A stretch of DNA of 64,000 nucleotides from Chrysoperla carnea (Eukaryota > Arthropoda > Insecta > Neuroptera > Chrysopidae): assembly GCF_905475395.1 (NCBI RefSeq), contig NC_058339.1, forward strand, positions 10,796,001 to 10,860,000, given 5' to 3'. Below, one piece after another: positions 27,647 to 59,103 of the stretch (the stretch's first letter is position 1; each line of letters starts with the position of its first letter). The position numbers were made by a program, and so were the translations under genes. A model generated the notes under the pieces. It made no database searches. It saw only the letters and a list, made by a program, of their open reading frames with translations, and had not been told where the DNA came from.

Positions 27647-27944
27647 AATAGGTTAGGTTAGGTTAGATTGGCTGTCCACGAAGGACACACTTAGGCTATA
27701 GAGCCCATTGTGATACCATTTATGTGTTTTACCACCTTTCTGCTGATAATTTCATTTATCAGCTTCTCAATTTCAGAGGCTGAGTGCACCTCCTTCATGC
27801 ATATACCATGCACTACGCCAGCCCATCACAACTATTAATTAAATTAATTTTGTTACGACGGCGGGAATAGAACCCGCTACCCTAAGCATACTGCGGACGG
27901 AATTGGTTACGCCTTGACCAACTGAGCTAATAGGGCGACAAAAT
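27647..27944 (-). mobile_element. tRNA-derived SINE with TTAGG-type tail
   Basis: On the minus strand the head reads TAGCTCAGTTGG (A box, 27930-27919) and GGTTCTATTCC (B box, 27873-27863, near the GGTTCGANNCC consensus), so it can act as an internal RNA polymerase III promoter. A body of about 170 bp follows, then a stem-loop (TGTCC..GGACA, about 27672-27690) and a (CCTAA)n tail at 27670-27651. A perfect 9-bp target duplication AAATCAGGT flanks it (27638-27646 and 27945-27953). Its tail matches that of the LINE at 58684, the probable source of its mobilising enzyme. Confidence 0.92.
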
Positions 27945-28384
27945 AAATCAGGTTATGCTTGTCATAAAAATGTTTTGTCATTTGATTTACGAATATATAC
28001 AAAACTGCAGTTCAATCGACAAACTATGATAGGAATGTTTCAAAAGTAAATAAAATTTCATAGAAAATAGGTCTCATCTAGTTAAAAGATTAGTGAAGAT
28101 CGGCAATATACGTCAAACTTATACTACGTACTTTTTTACGTTATTGAAGAATTATATGTGTTAAGTTAACATTTGCATTCCCATTCGAGAATATAAGTGA
28201 TAAATTCGCATTCGCGAATGTATAAAATACGACATTCGTCCCATCACTAAAATGGATATGTGTATAGTGAATTATAATTCACCTGTATGCGATTAATACA
28301 TAAAGTTTTTGTACGTGGAAGGTGTGTTACGAGGTAGTGAAGTAAGTACACTCAAAAGTAATGTTTTACTCACTCACTCTTTGG

Positions 28385-28500
28385 CTAGTGCAAGCAAGCA
28401 GGCATGGTGGTGGTCAAACTGCCAATGCAGAAGCTACTGTTAACTGTTATTCAGACACACAACTGAGTGTACAAGCGCGTTACAATCCTCAGACCTCAGT
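28385..28500 (+). promoter_or_regulatory. Candidate promoter / 5' UTR patch for the exon at 29190
   Basis: A GC-balanced patch in AT-rich surroundings (TGGTGGTGGTCAAACTGCC, GAGTGTACAAGCGCG) with an initiator-like CTCAGTT at about 28494. It lies about 700 bp upstream of the candidate start codon. No downstream promoter element was found at the expected spacing. Composition is the main evidence. Confidence 0.25.
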
Positions 28501-29189
28501 TAATACATAACACGCGTGCTATTCATTTAATTTAATAACATTCACAAACCATGTGCTAAATCAAAAAGTATATTTTTTACAACAATACACCAAACAGAAT
28601 TTAAGTGAATAACATTTGGTAATAATGTGACCCCAAAAAAAGTTGTTTTCAATAAATGCCAAAAAAAAAATGTTTTTTTGGCAGTATGAAAAAATATTTT
28701 TTTTGTAGAAATATGAAACTTTAAGCGCAACAACATTTTTAAGTATAAACTAACCAAAGAAAATTTACCTGAAAATTTAAGTATTTTGTGTACCAAAAAA
28801 TCAAAGTGCAATTTTTTTGTGTGTATTTTTCCATATTTTATTTATAAGAAAATCGGTCAACAAAAAATTATTTTGGCACAATTTCAAAAATCTCAAAATA
28901 AATATTGTTTTGTGTAAAAGTGTTAATAAAAAAGTGAAATAAAACTTGGAAATTATTGGATAAAAGATAGCAATTTTTTTTTATTGTGCTTATCAACAAA
29001 CCAAACACCAATTGTTTTGAAATTCAGGTGTTTATAATAAAAAAAATTATTATCATTGATAATAATTTATCATATTTTTCATTATGTGACAAGTATTCGT
29101 TACATACGCAGTTAAATATTTTTGTTCCGAGTTTTAAAAATTTGATTACAAGAAGTTTTCGAAGTGTTTTCGAAAAGTTTGATTTGTAT
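28501..29189 (+). other. AT-rich sequence, possible 5' UTR
   Basis: Very A-rich and T-rich, with long homopolymer runs. If the exon at 29190 is real this would be its leader. The minus-strand 89-codon frame at 28542-28811 is Phe/Lys-rich low-complexity translation and not a gene. Confidence 0.35.
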
Positions 29190-29559
29190 ATGAGTGAAAC
29201 AACAGTGTTATTTAATACAGTGGTTGTGGATGATCTGTTAATGTCGCCATATAGTCGTTATGGTGTTGGCGGTGGCGTTGGGGGTGCCGTTGTGACAGCA
29301 CAAACACATACACCCCCTCATCGTGTTGTGAATGGTGCTAGTAATCCATCACCAACTGTTGTGTTTATCGAAAAATCAACATCGATATATTCGACAACAA
29401 ATAATAATTCTAGTAGTGCAAATTCAAAAAAGTTTAATCATAGTAATAATAATAATTCAACATCGACTACTTCGTCGGTGGGCTGTCGTCCGACCAGTAC
29501 CACAGCGGCACGTCGATTTTTAAGGTGGATCAGCAGATTGGGCCATCAAGGAAAACCAG
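29190..29559 (+). CDS. Candidate first coding exon of an unrecognised protein
   Basis: From ATG 29190 the frame encodes 123 residues plus one base, ending at CCAG|GTGTGT, a good splice donor (exon phase 1). It starts MSETTVLFNTVVVDDLLMSP, then a Gly/Val-rich stretch (YGVGGGVGGAVV), a Ser/Thr/Asn low-complexity region typical of insect regulatory proteins, and a basic end RRFLRWISRLGHQGKP. GC content rises clearly over the exon and falls after the donor. The frame runs open upstream to 28986, but that part is Ile/Phe/Lys-rich like random AT sequence, so the internal ATG is preferred. No domain family is recognised and no downstream exon was found in the window. The alternative is a chance frame over trinucleotide-rich DNA. 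Confidence 0.45.
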
Positions 29560-29720
29560 GTGTGTGTTTTAATAGATGTTGTTATAATATAGGTATTTAT
29601 TTAATAATTCTTTCTCGCCATTTATCCAAAAATCTTAAATTATGGTCAATTACACTTTGTTTTGGGATCAAGGGAAACCACATTTTAAATATCTAAGTTG
29701 TTGGATTTATTATAATAAAA
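29560..29720 (+). other. Start of putative intron 1
   Basis: GTGTGTGT after the candidate exon, followed by AT-rich sequence. The open frame that runs through to 29696 is read-through of intronic sequence. Confidence 0.35.
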
Positions 29721-30271
29721 CAAGTGAAAACAAACAATTGACTGAATTAATTGTTGAAATACCATGCATAAATAGTGTTGATTATTCTATCACATTGCAC
29801 ATACATATACAATTTATATAATACATATTATACAATTTACGTCTAATTTGCGCCTTCACGGGTAAACAGTGATGTTTACGAAAAAACGTTTCAAACAAAA
29901 GTTGTTTATTTTTTCATAAGGAACATTTGTTATACTTAAACTTTTGTTCTATCTCTAACGGTTTACAAGATGGGTCTTACGGACCCATAGGTCCAGACCC
30001 AATTGACCGATGTTGCTCATTTACGAACTCGACCTCACTTTTTACGTCCTGAGTACGCTGTAAAAATTTCAGCTTGATATCTTTTTTCGTTTTTGAGTTA
30101 TCGTGCCCACAGACGGACGGATGGACGGACAACCGGAAATGGACTAATTAGGTGATTTTATACATATAACACCTATACCAAAATTTTGTTCGTAGCATCA
30201 ATATTTTTAAGCGTTACAAACTTGGGACTAAACTTAGTATACTTTGCACATTACATATATGCATGGTATAA
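29721..30271 (-). mobile_element. INE-1-like short element, copy 7
   Basis: Full-length minus-strand copy in the putative intron: CAAGTGAAAAC end at 29721, GACGGACGGATGGACGGAC run at about 30112, TATACC hairpin end at about 30271. The frame at 30234-30422 only borrows this end. Confidence 0.94.
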
Positions 30272-30274
30272 AAA

Positions 30275-32660
30275 CAGTAGCAGGTACGGCCTCTGAAAGG
30301 GTTTTCGTGGCTGATTGAGATTCATGAAAACAATCTATGGTTTTCGGAGTATTTTTTTTCTGGTGAATTCGAAAATCAAGGTCGTTTTTTCGAAATATGA
30401 TCGAGTAATTTGTTATAAACAATTTAATTGTTTATAACACTACCAATCATACTAGACGATGATTTTTGCAGTTGTAACTGTGAAAATGGATAATATTATT
30501 CGCTAAAACTAACCCTCCGAAATAATTTTTCTAAAATATTAGTTGTAATAAAAGTTATTTAAGAAATTTTGTGAGAAAACCCCGGAGAAAATAGTGCTAT
30601 GAAATCATTTTTCCGTCAATTTACTCAAATCACGATAACTCCCAATCAAAAAGATATTGTACTAAAATTTAAACAGCGTGCTCTTAAGAATTCTACAAAT
30701 TCGATTCGGAACAATTATAATTCAAAATCTAAACTGAATTTTTCATCAAGTAAAAGTTTACAGAACCGGAAATATAGTTTATTAACACCAAAATGGTACT
30801 ATTTTTCAAATCTATTAATATGTGCTGGCTTGAAAATTTGCTGAAATTAAAAAAGTATTATTCTTAATGACATGCATGGTTAATTGTAATTAAAAATTAG
30901 CTGATATTAATAATTATTGACAATTAAAAACGCAATGATTTTATTATTTTTTATTACAAAAATAAGTGAAAGTATCATATAGAAAATACCGGTCTATTTT
31001 TAGGAGTAATATTAAGTAATTTGATAATATTTATCTTAAATCATTGTCTTTGTATATTAACTTATTAAAAGGTGACATAATTATTTTTAATCGTTAATTT
31101 GACGAAGATAAAAACTCAATGTTCAAGTTAAAAATTTGTTGAATATTTTTAACTTCCTTTAATAGTTTTATTGTACTTATGCACATTTACACATTTACAA
31201 TGTGGTCGAACGTCTCGTTTTAAAAGAGACTGTCCATTTTTTCTAAATTCCGTCCTGGTTTCTCCTCGAAATGCTTCGCGACGCAAACCTTACCCGTTTC
31301 TAATTAGAGTTAATATTAGACGATTTAAAATCTTATATATTATTCCTTTATCTCATTCCTTTATCAAATTAGTGCTGGTTACTGTCGAAAAATACACTCA
31401 CGGTCTAAAAATGTACCGCTTAGGAAAAAAACAGGCTAGAGAAACAATATTAAGATTAAATTTTATTCTTTATGTAATTTTTATATCAGTTCTGTAATAA
31501 AATTGCCTATAAATAAAGATAAAGTAAATTAATTTTTTTTAGCCACGAGTACTGCGCTGCGGAATTCAGCGCACGGGTCTTGCTACTTGAATTTAATATA
31601 GTTTTTCCAAAAATTTAAAGTAGAAAGTTGAGTAGGTAGGAAAAGTTGCACAGGGGTTCTCGTTGAGGTTTTAAATTAAAATTTGATACCCGGTAATTTA
31701 CAGAGTATGTACCTACCTACTAGGCCAAGGAACGTTTTTAGTAAATATGACCACGTTATACACAAGTTCGATATCTAGCTTATTTTTCGAGAAATGGAAG
31801 CTGTAGGCTGAAAATTAATAAATACGCAAGGAATACGTAATTGACTTAACATAAATGATTCTCCTTTTACTAAACAAGTGTCAAGAAATGGAAAGCCCCA
31901 ACAAAAAATTCAATTTGATTGATTCTTTTGATTAAATGATAAAAAAATCAAAAGTAGCCCACTTCAACCAATTTTGTGGAAAAACCAATATCGCGTGATA
32001 TTTCCTTGGTAAGAAAATGAGAATTATGATAGCTGAAATCTATACATTTAGTATTGTAAGGATTATTCAAAGTTTGCATAAATAAAAGGGCTTTAAACAT
32101 GATCGCAAGAAAACATATTTTCTAGAAAACGACCTCATGTTAACGATGTCCGCTCTGATTGTAGAATATTGTAACCTTCGAAATTTACAATGGAAACTAT
32201 TAAACTACGATTGTTTCGCTTTGCGTGTTGAGTTTGAAGATAAACATCACATTATAAAAATTTTCAATAGTATGAATATTTAATTGTATTATTAACCTCA
32301 TTAAAGTTAGACCGGAATGATTTTCTTATCAATTATGACGCGCGAAAAATAATTACTTTCAATAAATTACTTTTAGAATTTTGTCTTATTCTTGGTATTT
32401 TAATTTAAAATAATTTGAAAAGAAATATTTTTAAAATTACACGATTCATAACTTTCAAAATTGTGAAAATTTCAACAATAAATAAATATTATAATCCATT
32501 AATAATTAATAAATCGGTTAACAGTCGGGTCTAGTTTTGAAATATCTCCTTAATGATATAGAGAATTCCATTAATTAAATTAAAAAAAATTCCAATTCGT
32601 AAATTATTTTTCCAAAGAATGCCTTTTTTTTAAAGTGACGAAATCGCGAATCAATTTTAA
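30275..32660. other. 2.4-kb intergenic or intronic stretch
   Basis: Two frames look less random than usual: 30599-30844 (81 codons, Ser/Asn/Lys-rich) and 31171-31497 (108 codons, Arg-rich middle, CG-containing codons around 31225-31300). Neither has a recognisable motif, start context or splice signal, so neither is called. A small perfect hairpin lies at about 30411-30436. Nothing else seen. Confidence 0.4.
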
Positions 32661-32673
32661 ATTTTCTGGTTAA

Positions 32674-33227
32674 GGTAGTTCCTCCGCGACAGTCCAGTCA
32701 AAAAGTTTTGGACTAATACTATCATTCAGTGCATTAACTGTGCTATGACTATTATACATATACCATATATTATTTTCACAAGACTGTAGTTACACACTAA
32801 TTTATCTCCTATACGTATACAGACACACACTATGATATATACGTTTACCATTAGTTTCTATATCCTCTCCACAAAAATTATCGCTAAAACGAGTTATTTA
32901 TTTAAGTTTTTTATCGAAACTATATGGTAAATAATTTTTATTTTTTTTAATATATTTTCTAAATATAGTATTCTACATTATATTAGTTTTTCATAGAGAT
33001 GGTGAACGTCATTCATTGATAAATAAATATAATATTTGTAAATTTGTGTATTTTTATACGCTTCTCCCATGTACACGTACAAATTGCGCCACTTTTAATT
33101 GCTAATATCTCATGTATGGCATGGTAAATCATCTTCTAATTTTAACAGCATGTGTTTTATGAATTAAATATTTTATATTCTGAGTTTTGAGAAATTCTTG
33201 AAATATCACTTTCGTGTAGGTACTACC
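32674..33227. mobile_element. TTAA-target element, family T2 (554 bp)
   Basis: TIRs GGTAGTTCCTCC and GTAGGTACTACC face each other, and TTAA flanks both ends (32670-32673 and 33228-33231). No coding capacity. It has inserted beside, or in, the A-box-like part of the tRNA-derived repeat that starts at 33228. Confidence 0.78.
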
Positions 33228-33690
33228 TTAACCAACTACGCTATTGATGCTTGTTACATTTACAACAAAAAATATATTAAATGTTAAAATAAAAATAATA
33301 AATAAAAATTATCAATATGTTTATTTCAATGTTTATTTCAAACTTTCTGTTAACTGATAACAACAATCTTCATGAAGTTGCCTCAATCACATATGGACTA
33401 GACATGATAGATATGTTTTCGTACTAACCTAATTCTATATTTAAAGAAAACGCAAAGAAATTTTCTTTTAATTCATCGATTCGCTTTATTTACACGATTA
33501 TATATTTCAACTTAGTACAATTTTATTTTCCATCAATAAAATGCATGACTTTAAACTAAAATCAATCTCTTTCATAGAAGTAATGATTTTGTTTATTTAA
33601 CTTCAATGATTTTGTATCAATGAATTCATATTTTAAATATTCTAAATTCTGTAAATACCAATATTTAGCTGTACTTGTTCCAATCGTTAT
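33228..33690 (-). mobile_element. tRNA-derived repeat (SINE-like), copy 2
   Basis: Minus-strand TAGCGTAGTTGGTTAA (33250-33229) is the A-box-like start, cut off by the T2 element. The body from about 33308 to 33687 matches 16138-16464 and, in its first half, 48377-48545. Confidence 0.65.
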
Positions 33691-34260
33691 CAAGTATCAG
33701 ATGAGCAAAGTGATAGAAAATAAATTGGCTTGGATGGCTTCGCTTCGGTTTGTTTTTATTTGCTAAAAATATAGAATTTAGTAAATAATTGTCAAATGAA
33801 GGTGTATAAGGAAATAGGAAATGATTCAATTTATTGAACAATTTCAATGACTAAATAATAAATTTATTATTACCAATAAATTTTGTATGGATTTACATAT
33901 AAATTTATGTACAAATGTGACATTTGAACTTACACAAACAATTTCTAATAGTTTTTTTTTTTTGTTAAGAGTTAAGTAATTTATTTTTATTGAATACAAA
34001 TAAAAATAATGATTAAATTTATTAATTGTATTTACATTAATTTTTAACAATTATATAATTAAATATTAATTATTTGTGTATTTTTTGTGAAATTTAACCT
34101 AGGGGGACCTTAGATCATTGTCAAATAATGACTATGTAATTAACTTTTTCTTTTATTGGATATATTTTAGAAAATTTATTATGTGTCCTAAAAATTGAAC
34201 AGACTTTCTTGTATTTTTTAACTGAGTCCTGATTGTCCCAGTCTATATGAGGAATAATTT
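33691..34260. other. AT-rich intergenic stretch
   Basis: Only Lys/Asn/Phe-rich short frames (33665-33847, 33844-34050). Nothing recognised. Confidence 0.5.
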
Positions 34261-34264
34261 TTAA

Positions 34265-34325
34265 GGATGTTTGAAGCATGACAACAATGTTTGATTTAAA
34301 GAATCAAAATTTGTTTATAGTTTGA
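34265..34325 (+). mobile_element. TTAA-target MITE family T1, end fragment
   Basis: TTAA (34261-34264) followed by GGATGTTTGAAGCATGACAA and TTTGATTTAAAG, matching the first 60 bp of copy A at 14502. The rest of the element is missing. Confidence 0.75.
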
Positions 34326-34822
34326 CATTATTAGAACCAATGATCGATTATATTTTTACCATGGTTGAATAGAGAATTTTATACCCTTTCAAATGAAGTA
34401 CAGCAAAGTTGGGAATGCCATTTAAAACTCAAAGAAGGGGTGAAACTTAAAATTTTCTAGGTACCATTTTTGAAGAATTTTATCTCTTAGAACTCGACAT
34501 GATTCTCTTGAGAATTTTATCTCCAATCGTTTTGATATTCTCGTTTCACGCATCTCAGCTTTATGATTTACGTGTGTCAAAGTACTATCAGGTATTATAT
34601 TTATGTTGTAGGTATCTAATCATCACCAAAAAAATCAAACTATTGAAGCCAATTAAATGTTAATAATAATCCTTGGAATACGATTTATAATAAACCTATA
34701 TTATACGTTTGTATTAAACTTTATCTGATTAAATAGAATTAATTAACGCGAACATTTACCTATTTATAATAATAGTTATAGAGATACGAACATGAAATAA
34801 ATCAATATCTGAAGGATTTATA
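34326..34822. other. Intergenic stretch
   Basis: Nothing recognised apart from the pogo-like end that follows. Confidence 0.5.
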
Positions 34823-34824
34823 TA

Positions 34825-34850
34825 CAGTGAAAGTTGTCTATAACGTCGTC
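34825..34850 (+). mobile_element. Solo pogo/Tigger-like end
   Basis: TA then CAGTGAAAGTTGTCTATAAC, in the style of Tigger TIRs. No facing partner within the next kilobase. A similar end is at 51277. Confidence 0.4.
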
Positions 34851-34924
34851 CTAATTTATTGTGGCTTCAAACCATAGAATATTATACATAGATAACGCGA
34901 GGTATCTGCTAGCCTGTAAGTGGA

Positions 34925-35087
34925 TGCGATATAATGAATGAGAGAGAAGACTACCAGTTAGTTCCTATTTGTCCTTGTCATTTTGATTTTGTGTAATGTA
35001 AACAATAACTAGCCAATGACATATAGATTCGACAAGGACACATACACCTGGCACTCTTCTCTCATTCATCATATCGCAAATTTTGGG
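34925..35087. mobile_element. MITE, family R, copy 2 (163 bp)
   Basis: Inverted ends TGCGATATAATGAATGAGAG and CTCTCATTCATCATATCGCA. The interior TCCTTGTCATTTTGAT..GACAAGGACACATA is itself partly palindromic. Related to 20535-20745. Confidence 0.72.
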
Positions 35088-35155
35088 GCATGGACATCTT
35101 TCTATCATGTCTAGAATTCCCTTATAAATTTTATGGATTTTCTGGTATATTTAAC

Positions 35156-35873
35156 CAGGGTTCGAGGATATATATCAATGGATATATATCCGATATATAT
35201 CACGTGAATTTTTATGATATATATCAATACAAAAATGATTTTAAAAAATTTAATATTATTTGGTAATTTTTGGCGTTTGTTATCGTATTTCTACTTCCCA
35301 AATTTTGATGGCATTGGAGTAGAGTTAAAACCTACTAATACTAAGCTCAAATCGTGTCGTGTCAAAAAAAGTTCGTTACTAAAGAGTAAGTTTAAGTAAG
35401 ATTCAGAATCGGAAGATGATCTAGCTTTATCTTCCTTGCAGTCAATCCACGCACAATTATGAAACGACATTTTTTTTTTTATTTGATAATTAACAGTTTA
35501 TTACGAACGACTGATGACTGATTTGATAATTAAAAGACTGATTATACTCTAGAGTTATTATTTGTAATGTTTATTGTTTTGTTGCCTAAGTGCAGGTATG
35601 ACCATTGACTGATAACAATTTATAAAATTGTTTTTTGTTTTAAAGTTGATTTTTTTTATAAAAATTTTATTATTTTTAATTGATTTTGCCTGATCTAGAA
35701 GAATATTTTATGTTTTGGTTTCATTTGTCTGATTTGAAGTGCCTAAGTAAATAAAACCTTTAAAACATTTTTTTTTTTTTTTAAATATCAAAATATTGTT
35801 ATATATCGGATATATATCAAAAATACCCGATATTTTGATATTTATAATAAATATCGGATATTTTCGAACCCTG
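35156..35873 (+). mobile_element. hAT-like non-autonomous element, copy 1 (718 bp)
   Basis: Ends CAGGGTTCGAGGATATATAT and ATATTTTCGAACCCTG. TATATATC-rich sub-terminal repeats lie inside both ends. It matches 40906-42480 except for the insertion in that copy. The interior has a short coding trace: FDGIGVELKPTNTKLKS, then after one stop codon (shared with copy 2) DSESEDDLALSSLQS. It keeps the single CTCTAGAG (35547-35554) at which copy 2 was hit. A clear 8-bp flank duplication is not visible here. Confidence 0.85.
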
Positions 35874-35881
35874 CTTTGTAA

Positions 35882-36907
35882 TATCTTTCACAAAAGACAG
35901 TCCTAAAAAAAAAATCTAAATCTGACTTACTTACATCACCATATTTACATAGCAGTTCCTTGAAGGATACAATAGTCAACTTTGTATTTCTCTAGGATAT
36001 GCTATTCCATTTTACTTTGTATATGTTACATTTATTTTATTTATTTTTTATTAAAAATAAATTTATTATTTCTTAAATGAAAAACGTGGGTGTTTCATTA
36101 AAATAGATCACACATTGTAAAAAAAAAACATTACTTACGTAACCTTGTAAAAGTGTTTGTTCGTTCATTCTATTGATAAAAAAAATTTTTTTTTTTTTCC
36201 TACATACAAAAAAAACAAGATAAGTAATTAATTAAATTTCAAAATTCAAGGCGAACTATATTAAAGTCTATTATAATCAATTTTAGCCTACAGCTGTTAA
36301 TTTTTATTTATTGCAGATCAGTAATATGCATAATAATTATAATAGCAATAATAATTGTTATTCAATATTTATTGTATTGGTTTCTAGAAGATTTATATAT
36401 GCATTTAAAAAGCTATAGATTGATTCAAATTGCTTTCAATTGAAAATATTTTATAGCAATTAATTGAGTTTAAGTGCAAATTGATTGGCAAAAAAATTAC
36501 ATCTAAACTCTGATACGTTTGAAGACGTCAGGATGAACAATGGCGCAGCGTTAAGCTTCTGCTTCAGTAAAAGTTGAACTGATATTTATTAAAAAATTAA
36601 AACCTTCTGGAACCAAATCTGCAGAATCAGAAGTTAAAGATAATAGAGATAATTTAAAGTAAATACAAGGCAATTTTATGTTATGTTATATTGTTATAAT
36701 AAATATCCTGATCAAACCAAATGTAATGTATGCACATTGCCCACACAAATATTGTGTGGGCTACTAAATCTATCTCTTATGTCCTATGTCTTTTTTAAAC
36801 TAATTACAATTAATTCATACTAGCTAATTACAATTAATTCATACAGAAAAATGTAAAAGAAGCTATAAAACTAAATTCTTTAAAAAATAAAACAAGTATT
36901 TGCAAAT
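35882..36907. other. AT-rich intergenic stretch
   Basis: PolyA/polyT tracts and nothing else recognised. Confidence 0.5.
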
Positions 36908-36997
36908 AAGTCATAACAGCCTCGTTTATCGCAAAAATTTTTCACTGGAAGCGCTGGCATCGATTTTATTGTCCCTACCATGACTACGCACACAACT
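36908..36997 (-). repeat. Conserved short repeat, copy 2
   Basis: Reverse complement of 12560-12657; about 59 bp are identical (CACTGGAAGCGCTGGCATCG and onward to CTACGCACACAA). Confidence 0.8.
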
Positions 36998-36999
36998 AA

Positions 37000-37760
37000 T
37001 ACGGAAATAATGATAATAATTAAATATTTTAAGCTGAATTATATGTGTTGTGTATTGCAAATGATTGGTAACAGAATTATGGAGGTCATGTGATTTATTA
37101 GACTAATTCGTAAAATATAATAATACATAAAATATCGTGGTTCATTAATATATTTATGTTGTTATGATATTTCATAATATTTCGTCACGTTTCGTCAATA
37201 TTGGTACACAAAATATATAATTACCAATTTGATTATCATTTTTGTAGAGGTAAAAATGTTTAACTGAAATTGTGTGTAAAATTTTGTTCAAAAGATTCAT
37301 TTTTTTACGTAATCTTTGATAATATATTATTTATTGAAAATTTGTTATTTAAAAAAGGTTAAATGTCATTTCTTGCGCTTTCTAACGACGTAAGATTAAG
37401 TTAATTGAACTGAACTAGAGGTATTTTAATAATTTGACATTTATAAAATTAGATAGAATTGTATTGTTTTAAATGAAGAAAAAGGTTTTGGGATAAAAGT
37501 ATTTTAATTTATTAGAAAAATTTTAGAAAGTGAATATTACTAGCGTGGAATATAAACTAGGCTGACAATAATATTAATTGAGGTGCTCTTCTTGATTTTT
37601 TTTGTAAGATCTGGCACCCCACGCTTTTAACAATAAATTTTAGATTACAATTATAATAATTTAATTACTTTATAGTCCTTTTCAAAAACATGGTATTATT
37701 TTTAAAAGATTCCACTGAAATTTTTACTATCTATTTTTAGTTTTGGGTTATTATATTTTT
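37000..37760. other. AT-rich intergenic stretch
   Basis: Nothing recognised. Confidence 0.5.
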
Positions 37761-37764
37761 AGAG

Positions 37765-38070
37765 TTTTTGAAATATCGCAATATTTGGACCGTATCTCAA
37801 AAACTATTCGACCAGTCAGCAAATGCACCCGATTTTTGTACTTTTTGGGTCAAAATTACCTTATAAACGGAGTTTTATCAAAATTGAAGGTATAAAAATT
37901 TTTTCGATTTTTTGTAATTTTTTTAAGGGGTACCCCTTTGTAAAAATCGAGAAAAACGCAAAAAGTATAAAAATCGGGTTAGTTTAATAATTGGATACAG
38001 AGTTTCTGAGATATCGCAATATTTGGATGGATTTTAGTCCGTATCTCAAAAATTATTCGACCAGTCAACA
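37765..38070 (+). repeat. 310-bp AT-rich repeat family, array 2
   Basis: About one unit: ATATCGCAATATTTGGACCG, CCGTATCTCAAAAACTATTC, GGGTCAAAATTACCTTATA and AAGGGGTACCCCTTTG, in the same orientation as 57123-57745. Confidence 0.85.
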
Positions 38071-38299
38071 TCTTATATAACGCTTATAACGCTATATTGC
38101 ATTTCTTTATTTTAAGAAAAATTCTACTTGAATTTCTATGGTTCGACCGTCAATATGTTGCCATTTGACTTTATCATTTTTGTTTGATTAAAATCTAAAA
38201 TGACTGTAGTACCTACCAACAAATGGAATATATATTATTACATATCATGATTGAATAACTTTCGATTGGAATTAAAATACCAATCATATAAAAATGATA

Positions 38300-38345: not shown

Positions 38346-38567
38346 GTTATATTTATAGCTACATTAATTAGGTGCTTGACCTGTTTGTTTGTTTATTTGT
38401 TTGTTGAAACGACATTTCGAAGCAATAATATAATTAAGATAATAACTGTTTTAGTTATAAAACTATTTGTTATTGTTATAATATCTTTACAGGTAGATTG
38501 TGAGGTTTATAATACCGGCCAGATACCGCTCACTTGCTTGTGTCATTAAAAGTTTAAAAAACATTAA

Positions 38568-39063
38568 CTAGTGAAAACAAACAATTGACTGAGTTAATTG
38601 TTAAAATACCATGTATAGACTGCATTGATTACACTGTCACACTACACATACATACATGTCACATATACATAACTGATATTCCTATATAATACATACTATA
38701 TGAGTTGAGCTGAATTTGTGCTCTCACGGGTAAACACTGATGTTTACGAAAAAATGTTTCAAACCAAAGTTGTTTATTTTTTTATAAGGAATATTTTTTA
38801 AATTTAAACTTTTGTTCAATCTCTAATGGTTTAAAAAATGGGTATGTTGCCCATTTGCGAAATGGACCTGCAAAAATTTCTTGATATCATTTTTCGTTTT
38901 TGAGTTATCGTGTTGGCAGACGGACGCACGGGCAACCGGAAATGGACTAATTAGATGATTCTATAAACACAAATACCAAAATTTTTTTCATCAATATTTT
39001 TAAGCGTTACAAACTTGGGACTAAACTTAATATACTATGATATATTTCATATATACATGGTAT
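38568..39063 (-). mobile_element. INE-1-like short element, copy 8
   Basis: Minus-strand copy with both ends; a deletion removes part of the central GGACCCA block around 38845, and the GTCCGTCC run is reduced to GACGGACGCACGGGCAACC. Confidence 0.92.
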
Positions 39064-39069
39064 AAAAAT

Positions 39070-39907: not shown

Positions 39908-39910
39908 TAA

Positions 39911-43873: not shown

Positions 43874-44224
43874 AACTTTTTATAGGTGAAATACTTTTTT
43901 AAATCGGTTAAGTAGTTAATTGACAAAAATGGCGAATTTTCATTAGTACACTTTTTTCCCAACAGTATTTCAAATACCGTTAAAAATCATTCAAAAAAAT
44001 AAAATTAAGAACAGTTTGTAAATTTGTAGCAGGTTGAATTAGATTAGAAAATTAATAATACCAACTTAACCTTATTTCACATAAAAACTAAAGTAATTCA
44101 TTTTAATGGTTTATTCAAATGGCTTGTATTGTAAATTATAAAAACATCTCTCAACAGTTGACAAAAATTACATGCAATTTATACTCGGTGGCCGGTATAA
44201 AACGAATTTGAAATGAATATGAAA

Positions 44225-44725
44225 CAAGTGAAAACAAACAATTGACTAAGTTAATTGTTGAAATACCATGTATAGACAATGTTGATTACTCTGTCACATT
44301 ACACATACTTACGTTACTGATATTCCCATATAATACATACTATTAATTTAAGCCTAATTTGCGTCCTCACGGGTAAACAGTGATGTTTACGAAAAAATGC
44401 TTCAAACAAAAGTTGTTTATTTTTTTATAAGGAACATCTGCATTTAAACTTTTGTTCTATCTCTAACGGCTTAAAAGATGGGTTCCACCCAAGACCTAAT
44501 TGACCGGTATTGCTCACACTATAAAAATTTCAGCTTGATATCTCTTTTCGTTTTTGAGTAATCTCGATGTCAGACGGATAGACAGACAGACAGAAAACCG
44601 GAAATGGACTAATTAGGTGATTTTCTGAACACCTATACCAAAATTTTGTTAGTATCATCAATATTTTAAGCGTTAACTTGGGACTAAATTTAATGTACCG
44701 TGGTATATTTCATATACATGGTATA
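44225..44725 (-). mobile_element. INE-1-like short element, copy 9
   Basis: Both ends present; small internal deletions around the GGACCCA block and a degenerate GACGGATAGACAGACAGACAG run at about 44573. Sequence between 43874 and 44224 holds nothing recognised. Confidence 0.92.
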
Positions 44726-44727
44726 AA

Positions 44728-48545: not shown

Positions 48546-49600
48546 AGATATATTCTAACTATCAACTTGATTTACAGAAATTTGTTAATGACAATTGACA
48601 ATGTTTTCTACAACGTTTCTTTGTTACTTGGGTTATACAAAAAATTAAATTTAATCCCGTTTTGATTCCACAAATCACGTGGAAAGCAAAAGTATATTAT
48701 CAAAAATTTTCCAAGCTTATAATGTGTGATTTGTACAATAAATTTGTGCCGAATAAAGAAAGAAATATTATATTGAATGAGTTTATCGTAGATTAATATT
48801 TACATATATAAATTTTTAATAGTTGATTTTGAATCACATGTGTGTGATTACTATTTCAATATTTTATTTATAAAACTCACATGATTTTCATTTAAATTTT
48901 TTTTTGTGTACTCTGCTTTGTTGTGTAACAACACTGTGTATATTGTGTTTATTTAGAAACAGAACGAAATTCATTCGTTTGTCGGTATTTTTTTGGAATA
49001 TTTGTTCCATGATTCGATCAAGGCATATCAGTAAGTTATGTTTATAGTGCCTGGGTTCATGTAGGCGCTATGTTCTTAGCTTTATGGAAAAGGTAATTGT
49101 ACCAAAAGTAGTGATGTTTAAACATGAGTTGAGGTGTATGGTAACATCGACGTGGCTTCAGAGCATTTTTATATTTGAAGGTTAACATGATTTTTGCCCA
49201 GTATACTTTATCGTTACATCATAAAAATAACGCTTCTAAATTTCTCAATTTTTCGTGCTAGTAAAAGTAACTTCCCTATAAAAATGCAAAAAAAAATTTT
49301 TTTTTTTAATTTTAAAACCGATCTAAGTACAATATTTTATATGTTATATTCTTATAAATAGAGTAAATTGTAATAATTTTTTTGTTTTTGTTTCAGGTGA
49401 GTCCAAATATTTAATAGTCAAAATTCATCTTTTCTATTCCTGTTTATAATCATCTTGGAAGGAATGATAAGTATGAATTGTAATAATTTTAAGGAGATTT
49501 TAATTTTACCTGTATTTTTTAAATTCTTTTAAAAACTTTTTCTTCTAAAAAAAAAAAAAACCGCATTTTTTGTCAATTGTAGTGCTAGTCTCATAATCAT
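48546..49600. other. Intergenic stretch
   Basis: AT-rich with polyA/polyT tracts. Nothing recognised. Confidence 0.5.
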
Positions 49601-50243
49601 TTTTAACCGACTTCAAACAAAAACGGAGGAGGTTATCAATTCGACTGTATTTTTTTTTTATTATTATTTTTTTTTTATGTTATTGTTACCGCAGAACTTT
49701 TGACTGGGTGAACCGATTTTGATGATTCTTTATCTGTTTGAAAGCTGGTGCTTCCCGTTTGGTCCCATTTCATTTTGGTCTAGTTCTGACATCCATGAGA
49801 AAATCATAAAAGTCTGAAATTTGCATTAAGTATGCACGGCAAGAGGACGAATAACTCAATATCACTTCGATGATTCTTTTTTTAGTGAAAAATTAGTTAG
49901 TGTACTTCAGATTCACTAAAAATCACAAAATAAAAAATACTTTTAACAAAAAGAAAACCGACTTCAAAAGAATAATTCTTCCAAAACAAATTAAAATGCA
50001 CTAAAAAGTAAACAAATAATGATAATATAATGGAGTTAAAATTATTGTTATTTTTGGAGTCGGTGGCAGCCAAGGAAACAAATCCGACAGAACAGTTTGC
50101 TACATTAGCTTGGCTGACACCAACTCCAAGAATAACAATAATTTTAACTCCATTATATTATCATCATTTGTTTACTTTTTAGTGCATTTTAATTTGTTTT
50201 GGAAAAATTATTCTTTTGAAGTCGGTTTTCTTTTTGTTAAAAG
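49601..50243 (+). mobile_element. Foldback-type element, copy 1 (arm plus hairpin, 643 bp)
   Basis: An arm (49601-49939) beginning TTAACCGACTTCAAAC and GGAGGAGGTTATCAATTCGA is followed by a 304-bp near-perfect hairpin (49940-50243) whose outer ends are CTTTTAACAAAAAG and partner, and whose core is TTGGAGTCGGTGGCAGCCAA facing TTGGCTGACACCAACTCC. CCGACTTC therefore occurs at both outer ends and at the inner hairpin base. Widely scattered elements with this wording occur in insects. The frame at 50110-50301 is translation of one hairpin arm. Confidence 0.85.
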
Positions 50244-50244
50244 T

Positions 50245-53051
50245 TTTTTTTATATTGCAATACAAACAGTTATTATATTTGATCACTATAAATTGAGTTA
50301 ATTATTGGCCAATTCAATCTGAAATTCATAAAATTTTGATTGCATGTTTTAATGCACCGTACAAAATAAGTATGACATAGTTTTGCAACGTCATGGATCT
50401 CGAAATAAACGTCCAAATATAATTAATGGTCATGCCATAAAAACAATATATATTTTCTTCAATAAAAAAATTTTTAATTACCAAAGATACAAATTTAAAT
50501 GATTTCAAAAATATTATTAACAAATCATTATTTTTGTTGCAAGTTGTGTAGAAACTTATAAAGTTGAAATTTCACAATATCATTTTTTTGTTTCAATCAC
50601 TGTTGTTTGTATATTTTGTACTTATGTTATTCGCAACAGATGAATTCGACAGTTGTTTATTCTTTTACCCATAACGCATACAGGAAGAATTGTGGCCCTT
50701 ATGTTCATTTAAAGAAATAAAAAGAAACGAAAAAATTTTTCAGAAATCGAATCCTATTCTGTTCTAGGTAAGTGACTGGCTCTATTATTAAGGGACTGGT
50801 TAGGGACTGGTAAGGGACTGGTTTTATTATATTTTTGTTTACTCTATATGTCAATACGTTCTTCTAGTAACTATTGATATTTCATTTAATGCAATTCGTA
50901 CAAATATATTTCGAACTGTTTCTTCTGTGAGACGTACTCATTTTAGCATGAATCAATTGACGCTTGAATTGGCCACAAACATCACGCTACTTTAGTATTA
51001 ACCTAGAGTTGTAAGGCAAGATAAAATAAAGGAATGCTAACTTAATATTTTATATAAAAAAACTAGCATCGTGCATTTCAGCACTGCAGCGGCTGAGTTC
51101 GTGTTTTGCGAATAACTATAATATGTATTTATTCCACACGACTGACATATTTATGGTATGAAATCAAAATAAATGCGGGTATATGTATAATGGTTATTAT
51201 GACTTTGGTTTATATTGTTAGTGTTAATGCACTTTAGCTGTTTTGTTATTGGATAAAATATTTTAGTTTTTGTATACAGTGAAAGTCATTTATGACATCG
51301 GCTTGCCTTATAAAGCCATGTTCAGAGAGGTCCGAATCTAACAATACTCAGCAAGTTTTGTTTATGATCTTGAACTGAGTTTTGAAATGTTATATTTGAT
51401 AATCAAACAGTATGATTGAACTGTAAAACTCGTTGAATTGTTCGGAATTTTTAATGGGAATTCTGACCTTTCATTGACGGAAAGAAATAAAGGTTTCAGA
51501 TTATTCGGTTTGAAAATTTTGATTTTGGAGCAGTATTTTCAACGACTATTGGGTTTTGTGAATTAAATTATTGGAGACGGATAATATAATTTAGGTCTGA
51601 TTGTATATGTGACTGTTTTCAGAGAATATGATTATGCTTAGCGTGTTATTAACAATAATGATAAAAATTCATGGTCAATAAATTAGTCAAACGTTTATCA
51701 ATTAGTAATTTTTTTTAATTTAATTGTATATCCATGTTTAAATATTAAGGTACAAGCAATTAACAATTTAGTTATCAATAAGACAGGAAGTTAAACTAAA
51801 CAAAATTTTAATTAATAAATGTTAGTTTTTGGAATGGGGAAGTATTATAAATTTTCTGTACTATTTTTCTAAAAAGGCACTTTATTATTTTGTATCGACT
51901 GTTAATACTAAATAAGAACTATTCAAACAGAGATGGGCTTTGCTAAGTTTATAATATTATTGTAACTATCGATTTGTTTGACAGTGGTAATCGGATTTTA
52001 GCGGCATATCAAGGAATATGAAATTATCACCTAAGGCTTCGTCTTATACAAGAATTCGACCTTACTCTGGCAAGAAGTCTTGTTCTCAAGGAATATTCAT
52101 CAATTTTAAGCTGCCTACGAACTAAAAATTTTCTAGATTTGCAAAAGAAAAATCGGCAGCAAAGCAATTTTAGAAGAAAAAGTTATTAGATACGACTTTT
52201 AACAACGGCTTTTCAAATTTCTAACCGTTCTGATTGTTTAATTTCGCTCCTGTTCCTTGAATTATAACATTTTAAGGGCGTCAAAACATATTTTTGACCT
52301 GACGTGAGTCTAGATGCGATTTTGATTTCAAAAATACATTATGCAAGTTACCTTCCCTGATGGCCTGCACGTGTTTAATGCGTATACAATCATTTATTTG
52401 ATTTGCTAGAAGCGATGATGCTATTCAACGTATGGGTATTATTATGATTAAGTTCAAAGTCTATACATAAAGACAATTAAATCAATTGAAATTGTTTATA
52501 AAATGACATGATTATTGACACTGATGGGCGGTAGAGTTAAATATCACACATATTTATATTAATATCATGTGCAGACAATAATATTATAAATTCGTATATT
52601 AATAGTGCTTATAATAAATAATATTTTATATTGCAGTCCGTCTGTCCGACCGACACAACACGACCGACATATATATTAATTTACTGTTAAAATTACTTAC
52701 AGTTGTTGTTCGTTTTAATATAGAGGTATAATATTGTTTTTTGTTTTTTTGAAAGTCTAAATCTAAATTTAATACTTAGTGAATGGTTTTTAATTTAATT
52801 ATTTATTACGTATACAAATTGCAATAATTAAAAAAAATTGAAATATTCATAAGTTTACTTTTGAGCCTTTCATAAAACTTTATTATTTTAAAAAGTTAAA
52901 ATCAGGTCATTTTTTCTTGTTTTGAATTTTTTGATCGATGGTTAAGTTCAGCCGTTCTCAATTTGGCTGAACGCAGTCAATATCTAAATATATTCCAAGA
53001 AATAAATCGGACAGTAGGATAAATTATGCTAGAGTAGAAAATAAAATGAAA
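50245..53051. other. 2.8-kb intergenic stretch
   Basis: Holds a short tandem AGGGACTGGT run (about 50791-50822), an old SINE-like trace at about 50700-50775 similar to 16800-16885, and the pogo-like end at 51277. No gene seen. Confidence 0.45.
51277..51300 (+). mobile_element. Solo pogo/Tigger-like end
   Basis: TA then CAGTGAAAGTCATTTATGAC, close to the sequence at 34825. No facing partner nearby. Confidence 0.35.
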
Positions 53052-53480
53052 CAAGTGAAAACAAACAATTGACTGAGTTTATTGTTGAAATACCATGTAT
53101 AGAGACAGTGTTGATAAGCAATTGTGTGTTTTTTTATGTCATGTAAGTAAAGAAAGACAGTCACTCTTACACACAATGTAATAAGAGTATCTTTCTTTTC
53201 ACTTCCTCAGTGAACATATTATATGTTATAAACAAACACATACATAATATACAATAAATATATACTTGATACTATAAAATACATACATGCTATATAACAT
53301 CTAATTTTCGCCCTCACGCGAGTAAACAGTGACGTTTACGACAAAATGTTTCAACCAAAGGTTGTTTATTTTTTTATACAGACCCAAGACCCAATTGATC
53401 TTAGTTGTTCATTTAAGAACTCGAATACATTTTTTACGTCTTGAGCACGCTATTTCAGCTTGATATATTTTTTTGTTTTA
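53052..53480 (-). mobile_element. INE-1-like short element, copy 10, truncated with an insertion
   Basis: The CAAGTGAAAAC end and the CCCTCACGCGAGTAAACAGTG block are present, but the element stops near 53480 before the GTCCGTCC run and TATACC end. About 100 bp of extra sequence (53119-53235, with facing AAAGAAAGACAGTCACTCTT-like and AAGAGTATCTTTCTTT parts) interrupts the CAAGTG-side half. Confidence 0.85.
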
Positions 53481-53761
53481 AAATTTGAAATGTTCAATTA
53501 TGAAGAGAAATTTACAACTTCAATTAATCAAATTTAATTAATTTACCTCCATGTAAAGACTCAACATCTATATATGAGAAGCTGTGTAAAAATTTCATAT
53601 CAGAATTTTTTAACTCTTACAACAATATTTCATTTTTGATTGAATCCCATCGGTCATATGGTTAATTTTTTGTCAAGCAATAAGAACGCACGCATAACTT
53701 AAGTATGGTACTACTTCTACACATTTAAGGATGTATTTTTGTTGACTTCGAGTTGAGACAT

Positions 53762-53838
53762 AGTTATTGAAATAAATACCACGATACTCGAAATTGAATA
53801 ATTTTATTTCGAGTATCGTGGTATTTATTTCAATAACT
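53762..53838. mobile_element. Perfect 32-bp-arm palindrome, TA flanked
   Basis: The two 32-bp arms (53762-53793 and 53807-53838) are exact inverted copies around a 13-bp loop. TA lies at each outer end, so it could be a very small TA-target MITE. Perfect arms in such decayed surroundings imply recent origin or repair-driven homogenisation. Confidence 0.7.
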
Positions 53839-54208
53839 ACTTTTAAATTATCTATATTATGCATACTTGCGCACAATCTTGAAAATTTTTACCATTATTG
53901 CACATAGAAGTAATTAGAATAAAAAAAATTAGAATGTAAGCAAGTAGTTTAAAGAGGAGATTATCATCAAAATGAATAAATCAAACAAATTAATATTTAT
54001 CTATACTTCAAAAAATAATAATAAATGTAATTTATACGTATGTTTCTACAACATACTTGGATTAAAAATGAAAGTGTAGACTAAAGAGATAGATATACTG
54101 CATGAAATTAACAACAAATAAGTTCAATATAATCATAATTTTTTAATCAATTTAGCTTGAAGGTGGTTTTAATAAATAAATAACATGTAATTTAATTATT
54201 AAAAAAAA
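53839..54208. other. AT-rich intergenic stretch
   Basis: Nothing recognised. Confidence 0.5.
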
Positions 54209-54846
54209 CTTTTAACAAAAAGAAAACGTACTTCAAAAGAAAAACTTTTCCAAAACAAATTAAAATGCACTAGAAAGTAAATAAATAACGATAATATAAT
54301 GTAGTTAAAATTATTGTTATTTTTGGAGTCGGTGTCAGTCAAGAAAACAACTCTGACAGAACAGTTTGCTACATTAGCTTGGCTGACACCGACTCCAAAA
54401 ATAACAATAATTTTAACTACATAATATTATCGTTATTTTTTTACTTTTTAGTGCATTTTAATTTGTTTTGGAAAAGTTTTTCTTTTGAAGTCGGTTTTCT
54501 TTTTGTTAAAAGTTTTTTTTATTTTGTGATTTTTAGTGAATTTGAAGTACACTAACTAATTCGTCACTAAAAAAAGAATCATCGAAATCGGTTGGCTTGA
54601 TATTGAGATATTCGTTCTCTTGTCGTGCATACTTGCTGCAAATTTAAGACTTTTATGATTTTTTCATGGATGCCGTTGTCAGAACTGGACCTAAATGAAA
54701 TGGGACCAAACGGGAAACACCAGCTTTCAAACAGTTAAAGAATTATCAAAATCAGTTCACCCAGTCAAAAGTTCTGAGGTAACAAACATTAAAAAAAAAT
54801 ACAGTCGAATTGATAACCTCCTCCGTTTTTGTTTGAAGTCGGTTAA
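54209..54846 (-). mobile_element. Foldback-type element, copy 2 (638 bp)
   Basis: Same layout as 49601-50243 but reversed: hairpin at 54209-54512, then the arm running to GAAGTCGGTTAATA at 54846. The two copies lie about 4 kb apart in opposite orientation. The 103-codon frame at 54695-55006 starts inside the arm and is not a gene. Confidence 0.85.
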
Positions 54847-54849
54847 TAA

Positions 54850-55975
54850 ATACAAAAACACTGTATTAATGAAAGGTGCAACAATATTACCAATTATTTT
54901 CGAGTTGCAAATAAAAAATATCAAACTTCAAAGAACATTTTGTTTTTATTTAAAACAACAGTTTTTACAAAAAATTTTCAAATTTTTTTTATCAATTAGA
55001 AAGTAAACCAAGAGTATTTTTTTTTTTTAAATTAACAATTGGCTAAAAAAATTATTAATTTTTAATTAATATTTTCACCACTCCTTAAATTAATAATAAA
55101 AAAAAAATCTAATAAAAGTTTATCTATTTGAGACATGTAATGAATTATTAATTTTTTTTTTTTGCATTCAAACTTGCATTTGAATGTTGCACCTATTCAT
55201 GTTTGAAAAGGTTTAGAAGGTTAAATTTTTAGTTTATATCAATTAAAGAAAAAATATTAATTCATATTAAATGTCGTAAAACCTTTCCTAAATATGAATT
55301 TATTTCTACATAAGTATCAATTTTGTAATTTTTTATTGACAAATTCATTAAAATTTGTACCAAATATATTTTTTATTTTAACTTGAAATATTTAAATTAA
55401 TTTACTTTGTCTTAAAAAAGTGTCATAGCCTATGCAATATAAATTAATAAACTTAAAACATGTTAAAAAATCCAGTCAACTCATTATCTTTGTTCTATAA
55501 TTACTAGGTTACAGGAAGCGTTGAAAAAACTATATAGAATAAAAAAATATAAAAACTGGACTAATTGATAATTTAATAGCGTTATGTATTCAAAAAATGA
55601 AAAAATGCTAATTTTGTCATGAAAATCGATATAATACCGCTATATAAAATATTCTAATACACGACCCTTTTTGTTAGTTGGTAGTAATCTTAGTTTAAAG
55701 TTTTGATTTCAGTAAAGCATCTTAATAAGGGACTCATCAACCCTGTATGACTGTCCAAAATTTCCAATTGGTATTCCACGAAGCCAAAAAATTGTACGCC
55801 AATTATATAAAAATTTTTTTAGTTTACAATGAAAGAAGACAAATTTGTTTATTAACAATTTCCGAACTTGTTGAAAAATTAACTTCAATATACATTTCCA
55901 ACGGTAATAAATTAAGTTAATCTAGTTATTTCATGATCCTGAAGGTTCAAAGAACAAAACCTACCCATCGCATAT
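54850..55975. other. AT-rich intergenic stretch
   Basis: Low-complexity A/T with homopolymer runs. Nothing recognised. Confidence 0.5.
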
Positions 55976-56407
55976 TATACCATGCATATATGTAATATGC
56001 AAGGTATACTAAGTTTAGTCCCAAGTTTGTAACGCTTAAAAATATTGATGCAACCAACGATATCAAAGCTGAAATTTTTACAGCGTACTCAGGACGTTAA
56101 AAGTGAGGTGGAGTTCGTAAATGAGCAACATAGGTCAATTGGGTCTTGACCTATGGGTCAGTAGGACCCATCTTGTAAACCGTTAGAGATAGAAAAGTTT
56201 AAATGTAAAAAATGTTCAATAAAAAAATAAACAACTTATGTTTGAAACATTTTTTCGTAAACATCACTGTTTACCCGTGAGGGCGCAAATTAGGCGTAAA
56301 TTGTATAGCATGTATTATATAAATTGTATATGTACGTGCAATGTGTTCAACAATATTTATGCATGGTATTTCAACAATTAACTCTGTCAATTGTTTGTTT
56401 TCACTTG
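55976..56407 (+). mobile_element. INE-1-like short element, copy 11 (internal deletion)
   Basis: TATACCATGCATATATGTAA start and CAATTGTTTGTTTTCACTTG end are both intact. About 120 bp including the whole GTCCGTCC run is missing after AATATTGATGCAACC. Confidence 0.92.
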
Positions 56408-57122
56408 TTTCTTTCTTATTTTCAAGCTTTGACATAACATGTTACGTAATAAATTTTTATTATAACTAACTATAATTATGACAATAGAATTATTTGAAAA
56501 ATATTTTTTTTATCACAAATTTTTGTGGTTAATAAAGGTATAATGTATACTGTCCAAAGGTGCGCTGCTCCACACGGTATAGCTTAGTAAAATGATTATC
56601 ATACGTGTAATAATTTCTCTATTTTCTAGATAAAAGGTTATTTACCTTCATCGTGTGTGGACAAATGATTATGTATTATTATTATTAATAAAACACATTT
56701 TTGATAAAATAATTAGAAGTATAATAATTAATTATTGCATTATTTATAATTTATAAAAATATCTAGAAGTCAGGTTTTTATTAAGTACGATAAAATTTAG
56801 GTTAATGAACGAAATATTTAATTTACTCAACAAAATTTTTAAAAAATTTTTTAATATAAACATTAGTTTAATAAATTAAAAAAACAATAATTCGTGACAA
56901 ATTCAAGTATTGGAATTTTTTGTGATTATTAGTTTGGTTTTTATGTTCTTATATATCCGCTATTAATTGATAATTAATCAGATTTCGCATTATTAGAATT
57001 AAAATAAAATAAAAACTGGTGAGAAGCAGAGGTCCGTCACTTAAATCATATTTTCCCCTTGATTATATAATTCTAATTAAAAGATTCTTTTAATTAAAAT
57101 GGGATTTCCTTTTCTTAGTTAC
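56408..57122. other. AT-rich intergenic stretch
   Basis: Nothing recognised. Confidence 0.5.
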
Positions 57123-57745
57123 CATGCAGAGTTTCTGAGATATCGCAATGTTTGGATCGATTTTAGCCCGTATCTCAAAACTCTTCGACTTGTCATCAAA
57201 TGCATCCGATTTTTGTACTTTTTGGGTCAAAATTACCTTATAGACTGAGTTTTATCGAAATTGGAGACAAAAAATTTTTTTTCGATTTTTTGCAATTTTT
57301 TAAGGGGTACGCAACCCTTTGAAAAAATCGAGAAAAACGGGAAAAAATTATTTTGTATGGAATTTAATGAAACTTGGTGGATGGGGTAATTTCGATCCAA
57401 AAAGTATAAAAATCCAGTTAATTTAATGATAGGATGCACAGTTTCTGAGATATCGCAATATTTGGGTCGATTTTAGTCCGTATCTCCAAAACTATTCGAT
57501 CAGTCAACAAATGCACCCGATTTTTGTACTTTTTGGGTCAAAAAAAATTTGTTTTGGAATTTGATGAAACTTGGTGGATTGGGTAATTTTGATCCAAAAA
57601 GTTTAAAAATCGGCTTAGTTTAATGATTGGATGCAGAGTTTTTGACATATCACAATATTTGGATCGATTTTAATCCGTATCTCAAAAACTATTCGACCAG
57701 TCAACAAATGCACCCAAGTTTTGTACTTGTCAAAATTATTTTATG
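57123..57745 (+). repeat. 310-bp AT-rich repeat family, array 3
   Basis: The largest array. CAGAGTTTCTGAGATATCGC-type starts are at 57127, 57437 and 57633; the first step is 310 bp and the second is shortened by an internal deletion. Every unit keeps GGGTCAAAATTACC and CCGTATCTCAAAA phrases. The minus-strand frame 57233-57439 is a by-product. Confidence 0.88.
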
Positions 57746-58676
57746 TGTAAAAACAAAAGTTAAATTTATTACGTTATCATTTCTATAAATGAAATAGGAT
57801 TTTGTATTACCTACTTAAACTAAAAATAATTTTGTATGAGTTACGAAATTGACTGGAAATATATTTTTTGAAACAATTGTTGTGCTGGTATATTTATGTA
57901 ATAACTTCGTTTTTGTATTTTTAATTTAATTGAAGGAAATTATATTGCAAATTTTATTTTTTTAATTATGAATTCTAAATAGTGCAATACAATTTCAATT
58001 ACAACCAAACGTCATGAAATCGAATAACCTTTAAAAATGTGTATTCATTATTGACAACAATTTATTTAAAAAAAATTTCTAACATTCTGTTTACAATCAG
58101 AGCTGCTCCGGATATTAAAATTCCGGTGATGTGTTTTGTAATTATATTATTACTTAATAATGAATATTTTTATAAAAAATTTAATTAACACAAAAATAAA
58201 TCAATACGATTTACTTCCAACAAAATTGAAATGATTTAGCAGAAAGTTTCAAAAAAACTATAATTCCAAATTTTAATTGATTTGAGGGTTTGTAGACGCA
58301 TGAAAAAATGTTTAAGTAGAGTTAGTAGTATTATCATACTATTATAAGTTTTATCAAAGATAATAAAGGATAATTCAAGGATTTTTCGAAATAAATTTCG
58401 ATTTTTACCACAATTTTTGTCTTATAAAAATACGTATTTGGACTACCAAGTAGTCATCATCAGTATGAATTAGCTATAAATAGCGTATGTTTCTCATTGC
58501 TAATTTGGTGAACTGGATCAAAATTTATAACCTAAGTCTATGTTCAAAAAAATTAGTACTTCTTAAAATTGCTACTACAGTCTCATAGAGTTCCAAAACT
58601 CCGAGTTATGCCTTTTTCTGAGTAGAATGCTAAAAATTTAAGTAGGAAAAATTCAAATGTTACACAAAAGATGAAG
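57746..58676. other. AT-rich intergenic stretch
   Basis: Nothing recognised apart from a small hairpin near 58440 (GGACTACCAAGTAGTC). Confidence 0.45.
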
Positions 58677-58683
58677 AAGAACT

Positions 58684-59103
58684 AAGTTAGGTTAGGTTAG
58701 GTTAGGGTGGCTGTCCTGAGGTGGGACACACCCGGCCACTTCTTCATGAACCATTTGGAGCTGTTTAAGAAAAGCAAGAGAGCTTTGACATCGACGAGAG
58801 GTCGTTAAAGAGAGGCTGACTCAAGTAAGTTCACTTCCTCATGGCAAGAGCTGGGCAGTGACAGAGAAGATGAGACATTGTCTCCTCCTCGTCACTACTG
58901 TGACAGCTCCTACAGTAGTTGTGATACACTGCCAGGCCTAAGCGTTCAGCATGCTTGCCGCCCAGCCAGTGTCCTGTGATAGCCGCAACAACTTTGCGAA
59001 CCGAGGGTCTTGGAAGTGATATGAGATCTAAGGAACGCCTGCGATTGTACTCAGACCATATCTGTTTTTTAGTACCACAAGTACGTTCCTCCCTCCATCT
59101 AAT
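58684..59103 (-). mobile_element. 5'-truncated LINE, 3' end with RNase-H-type C-terminus
   Basis: Minus strand: the last part of ORF2, a 3' UTR of about 110 bp, a TGTCC..GGACA stem-loop at about 58712-58726 and a (CCTAA)n tail at 58706-58685. A candidate 7-bp target duplication AAGAACT lies at 58677-58683 and 59104-59110. Severe 5' truncation is usual for LINE copies. Confidence 0.88.
58829..59103 (-). pseudogene. LINE ORF2 C-terminal fragment
   Basis: The minus-strand frame reads WREERTCGTKKQIWSEYNRR, then SVRKVVAAITGHWLGGKHAE, RLGLAVYHNYCRSC and HLLCHCPALAMRK, ending at TGA about 58829. The TGHW..GKHAERLGL stretch and the following C-X2-C..H-X3-C zinc-knuckle-like motif are the usual end of reverse-transcriptase/RNase H polyproteins in Jockey/I/R1-group LINEs. 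No stop interrupts the surviving part; everything upstream was lost at insertion. The plus-strand frame 58955-59170 is its shadow. Confidence 0.85.

Follow-up and report, generated by a model that had tools for sequence, protein, structure and literature searches.

A tRNA-headed SINE and a 5′-truncated LINE fragment with a common 3′ end and a CCTAA tail

Described partnerships and telomere-associated elements

Partnerships between SINEs and LINEs that are recognised by a common 3′ end are of a known kind, and the general rule behind the use of LINE enzymes by SINEs is reviewed in PMC3747384. Insect pairs are few in the literature examined (PMC3747384, PMC3272025, PMC8010984), and another, if confirmed genome-wide, would therefore be a useful case of 3′-end recognition. 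Gecko of Aedes aegypti, with the I-clade LINEs MosquI and I-74_AAe, is the sole Protostomes row in Table 1 of PMC3747384; lepidopteran pairs are described in PMC3272025 and PMC8010984. Gecko is, like the SINE described here, a tRNA-headed insect SINE with a LINE tail, a likeness of description rather than of sequence. We regard Gecko and its I-clade LINEs as a near parallel.

The available account of PxSE5 and PxLINE1.1 from Plutella xylostella (PMC8010984) offers a second comparison. These elements likewise share a short 3′ end (43 bp at 84%), similar in extent to that of the pair described here, and PxLINE1.1, like the LINE described here, ends in a short tandem repeat. The unit of that repeat is ATGT, unlike CCTAA, and PxSE5 is derived from 5S rRNA, unlike our tRNA-headed SINE. 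PxLINE1.1 also encodes endonuclease and reverse transcriptase domains, whereas our LINE is represented by a short fragment.

UnaSINE/UnaL2 and the ZfL2 LINEs, in which 3′ recognition is stringent, have an arrangement that is also found here, a 3′ stem-loop followed by short repeats, and in the UnaL2 and ZfL2 systems it is required for retrotransposition (PMC3747384, PMC4176376). These LINEs are of the L2 type, and the UnaL2 tail is TGTAA as opposed to CCTAA. The loop matters in ZfL2, where it determines the specificity of zebrafish ZfL2-1 and ZfL2-2 (PMC4176376); in the pair described here the loops differ.

The telomere repeat that is termed canonical and ancestral in insects (PMC12564400) has CCTAA as its C-strand, and this tail is what makes the present pair unusual. 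FoTeR, TRAS and SART are likewise tied to telomere repeats (PMC12857005, PMC4700185), and the 3′ end of the fungal (Fusarium) element FoTeR is typically followed by 3–7 telomere units (TAACCC), C-strand units in the same orientation as those reported below (PMC12857005). FoTeR, TRAS and SART target or occupy telomeric repeats, whereas our two copies lie in ordinary DNA with direct repeats of their own. A literature search, with Repbase outside its scope, found no SINE with a CCTAA-type tail in the sources consulted, and it is only on that search that the novelty of this pair rests.

Two insertions with one 3′ end

Both elements were found on the minus strand of the 64-kb stretch of DNA analysed here (the window), and both end in GTGTGTCC-loop-GGACAGCCA followed by 3–4 CCTAA units. 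The first-pass annotation had placed them at 27647–27944 and 58684–59103; direct repeats trim these extents slightly, to 27650–27944 and 58684–59100. Their features, each listed in the 5′ to 3′ direction of the element, are as follows.

27945–27956, minus: putative target-site duplication of the SINE, 5′ copy, ATAACCTGATTT
27650–27944, minus: tRNA-headed SINE, insert between two direct repeats
27918–27929, minus: Pol III A box, TAGCTCAGTTGG (consensus match)
27864–27874, minus: Pol III B box, GGTTCTATTCC (consensus match)
27742–27763, minus: 8-bp perfect inverted repeat in the SINE body, GCTGATAA-ATGAAA-TTATCAGC (read directly)
27670–27690, minus: 3′ hairpin of the SINE, GTGTGTCC-TTCGT-GGACAGCC
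27651–27666, minus: tail of the SINE, CTAA(CCTAA)2CC
27638–27649, minus: putative target-site duplication of the SINE, 3′ copy, ATTACCTGATTT, 1 mismatch
59101–59110, minus: putative target-site duplication of the LINE, 5′ copy, AGTTCTTATT
58684–59100, minus: 5′-truncated LINE fragment, insert between two direct repeats
58834–59100, minus: remnant of coding sequence in which a C-X2-C-X10-H-X4-C motif is present (CRSC...HLLCHC; zf-RVT E 0.035, below the cut-off)
58709–58731, minus: 3′ hairpin of the LINE, GTGTGTCC-CACCTCA-GGACAGCC
58686–58706, minus: tail of the LINE, (CCTAA)4C
58674–58683, minus: putative target-site duplication of the LINE, 3′ copy, AGTTCTTCTT, 1 mismatch

In the SINE, of which the 64-kb window holds one copy, the A and B boxes are followed by an AT-rich linker, a body containing the inverted repeat, the hairpin and the CCTAA tail; 8 nt separate the 5′ direct repeat from the tRNA-like start. 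The two boxes, identified by consensus motifs, are 43 nt apart, a tRNA-like spacing that supports the description of the element as a tRNA-headed SINE. The A-box consensus has four further matches elsewhere in the window, and the other five of the six B-box matches in the window all fall inside tRNA-Ser genes. Neither ARAGORN nor Rfam called a tRNA in the SINE head. When the Rfam threshold was relaxed, five weak matches were obtained in which only the T-arm region scored, the best being beta_tmRNA (15.4 bits, E 0.0075, far below the cut-off); one overlapping match to a family of the same clan is left out of those given.

The second insertion shows the 5′ truncation, 3′ tail and putative target-site duplication of a LINE. 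The reading frame that carries the C-X2-C-X10-H-X4-C motif then runs into a stop, and the only relevant Pfam match in the fragment is zf-RVT (E 0.027 and 0.035, below the cut-off). Pfam detected no RNase H domain in this short, 5′-truncated sequence, and what had been called an RNase-H LINE is thus retained as a LINE-like fragment but without the RNase H label as a finding; the remnant may be the end of an RNase-H-type LINE. A frame containing NSSKWF stays open across the hairpin and meets its stop within the tail, which would put the LINE hairpin at the end of the coding region. We keep this side point apart from the main argument; in this copy the NSSKWF frame differs from the frame of the CCHC motif.

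The direct repeats are imperfect at both loci. Those of the SINE are 12 bp long with 1 mismatch, and 2.8% of 1500 random pairs score equally high; those of the LINE are 10 bp long with 1 mismatch, and the corresponding figure is 7.1% of 1500. The insert ends were picked by eye before testing in both cases, and the direct repeats, taken alone, are weak evidence, although their position next to the inserts is the expected one. Within the 5′ copy at the SINE, the letters TAACCT are similar to the tail and in this single case may have helped priming.

Stem arms and tail had been proposed as common to the two elements, and searches of the window sustain this. The hairpin pattern GTGTGTCC-N(3-8)-GGACAGCC matches at two places only, 27670–27690 and 58709–58731, both on the minus strand, and in 0 of 100 dinucleotide shuffles. 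Likewise, CCTAACCTAACC with at most one mismatch gave five overlapping matches, all at the SINE and LINE tails, against an expectation of 0.09 for the window. With the tail included, a 44-column alignment of the two 3′ ends reaches 84% (E 2.7e-6). The last 32 bp, anchored on the tail, score 22. None of 5988 segments taken at random from the window came up to this value (maximum 14; of 6000 draws, 12 close to the LINE locus were excluded), nor did any of the 478 among them with a GC content of at least 45%. When the LINE segment was shuffled 4000 times by mononucleotides, the highest score was 17. Once the final 25 bp are cut off, the two bodies give a score of 19, within the range of 15–20 given by 20 shuffles. 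In this comparison, which the first-pass annotation had suggested and which is made here on one copy of each, the likeness is therefore restricted to the 3′ end and accompanied by an identical tail repeat, the relation expected of a SINE/LINE pair.

The hairpins themselves agree less closely. Identical letters span both arms, and the pairs common to the two elements come to 5 bp (TGTCC/GGACA). The loops are unlike, TTCGT (5 nt) in the SINE versus CACCTCA (7 nt) in the LINE, and differ in length and in several letters; the two elements thus do not have the same loop and stem in the manner of the ZfL2 LINEs, a standard that comes from those LINEs rather than from any general definition. Folding provides weak backing for a 3′ hairpin in the two elements: the SINE end has a z score of −1.94, with 9 of 200 shuffles equally stable, and the LINE end one of −0.69, with 47 of 200 equally stable. 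A 7-bp bulged hairpin was considered for both ends and rejected. It suits the LINE, but in the SINE it is less stable than the 5-bp form (−5.5 versus −6.7 kcal/mol), and we therefore claim only the five common pairs. With its equal arms and unlike loops, the pair would offer a test of which part is recognised, the stem or the loop.

Probable origin of the shared end and possible role of the tail

Shared descent of the 3′ ends of the SINE and of the LINE lineage is well supported by the alignments. We consider it probable that this LINE, or a close relative of it, is the source of the SINE's 3′ end, in which case about 25 bases and the tail repeat would be shared by descent. What is directly seen, in one copy per family, are the A and B boxes, the common 3′ end with its tail and the imperfect direct repeats. 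In the mechanism that we propose, the tRNA-type promoter would drive transcription of the SINE. The LINE protein would bind the 3′ hairpin of SINE or LINE RNA, and target-primed reverse transcription would begin within the CCUAA tail where the target DNA is nicked. The outcome would be a SINE or a 5′-truncated LINE flanked by short direct repeats. If the SINE carries the 3′ end of the LINE lineage, as is most likely, it would be copyable by that lineage's enzyme, and we infer that it was copied in this way. The pairing put forward in the first-pass annotation thus stands as regards the shared end and tail; the unlike loops leave the exact pairing in doubt.

The unlike loops and weak folding speak against an exact match between this SINE and this LINE, and make a sister LINE subfamily a serious rival partner. 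It is conceivable, with a chance that we put at somewhat over one in three, that the SINE in truth pairs with a different LINE or subfamily, one whose arms and tail are the same but whose loop is that of the SINE, and that the fragment in the window is a cousin of this partner. Identical arms beside unlike loops argue for such a partner, as does the loop specificity of the ZfL2 LINEs (PMC4176376), but no LINE of this description was found in the window. Mutation of the loop in single old copies is possible, yet length and several letters differ. Acquisition from this LINE or a close relative, the reading that we prefer, already admits a near relation as the source; the two accounts overlap and their likelihoods are not exclusive. 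Convergence or chance, by which two unrelated elements would each have come to end in a GC-rich hairpin and a microsatellite, is highly improbable. It draws on the single copy of each family and on the comparison of the last 45 bp without the tail, whose score of 22 was equalled or exceeded in 5 of 2000 dinucleotide shuffles, the highest giving 23; against it are the anchored controls, 0 of 5988 and 0 of 4000, and the identity of the tail unit as well.

A further question is whether the telomere-like tail is functional, the CCUAA ends of both RNAs pairing with telomeric TTAGG overhangs, or whether the family stems from a telomere-inserting LINE. Both tails consist of 3–4 copies of the C-strand unit of the insect telomere repeat; they are oriented as at FoTeR 3′ ends (PMC12857005), an orientation that could permit pairing with a telomeric overhang. 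Insertion into telomeric repeats, by which TRAS, SART and FoTeR are recognised, is not seen because both copies are in ordinary DNA, each between non-telomeric direct repeats of its own. Other short LINE tail units are known, such as TAA in I and TGTAA in UnaL2 (PMC3747384), and a functional tail of either sort accordingly seems unlikely; our default reading is that the tail would be an incidental unit kept by slippage. More speculatively, and with little expectation that it is so, telomeric G-overhangs, in addition to nicked DNA, might prime the LINE and SINE RNAs through their C-strand tails, so that the pair would scatter short interstitial telomere repeats across the genome and could back up chromosome ends. 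If the families are abundant, the CCTAA tails would create many short interstitial telomere repeats, which could mislead both the counting of telomeres and work with TTAGG probes.

Relatives and other features of the window

Searches of viral_contigs by tail or body pattern brought up nothing related to the SINE or to the LINE. The LINE peptide yielded 15 stretches in viral_contigs that fit the pattern, none of which was confirmed, and the two pattern matches in genome_contigs were dismissed as chance, being bacterial DNA without a CCTAA array. The SINE had no match in phages and the LINE peptide none in plasmids; three matches of the peptide to PDB chains (E ≤10) were not meaningful, the best having an E value of 0.092.

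The window also contains a dense dispersed repeat of about 460–580 bp, nine copies of which were aligned with a mean column identity of 80%. One of its ORFs was checked and had no Pfam match, a conserved 23-mer had no match in viral_contigs, and one copy had none in plasmids. The copies lie at the following positions.

4524–5025, 6870–7329, 8509–9053, 11129–11705, 17688–18254, 24540–25105, 29718–30274, 38566–39068 and 44222–44727: copies of the dispersed repeat
near 53040–53479 and 55973–56423: partial copies of the dispersed repeat

Five tRNA-Ser (TGA) genes are arranged in tandem, three at 2129–2642 and two at 11984–12331, about 171 bp apart; aligned with each other over 352 columns, the clusters agree at 90.6%. 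A U2 snRNA match (600–820, minus strand, 85.9 bits), consistent with a eukaryotic source, adjoins a GC-rich 103-bp satellite of 8.6 copies at 942–1823. Another satellite, with a unit of 315–316 bp, is present at 18878–19740 and 63234–63970 in opposite orientation, the two arrays being about 85% alike. A CENP-B-type DNA-binding domain (PF04218, E 2.9e-11) is encoded at 15779–16048; domains of this type occur in pogo/Tigger-like transposons and in their derived proteins. Finally, segments of about 620 bp at 3846–4466 and 5503–6122 form an inverted pair with 99.5% identity, which argues that the pair is recent or gene-converted.
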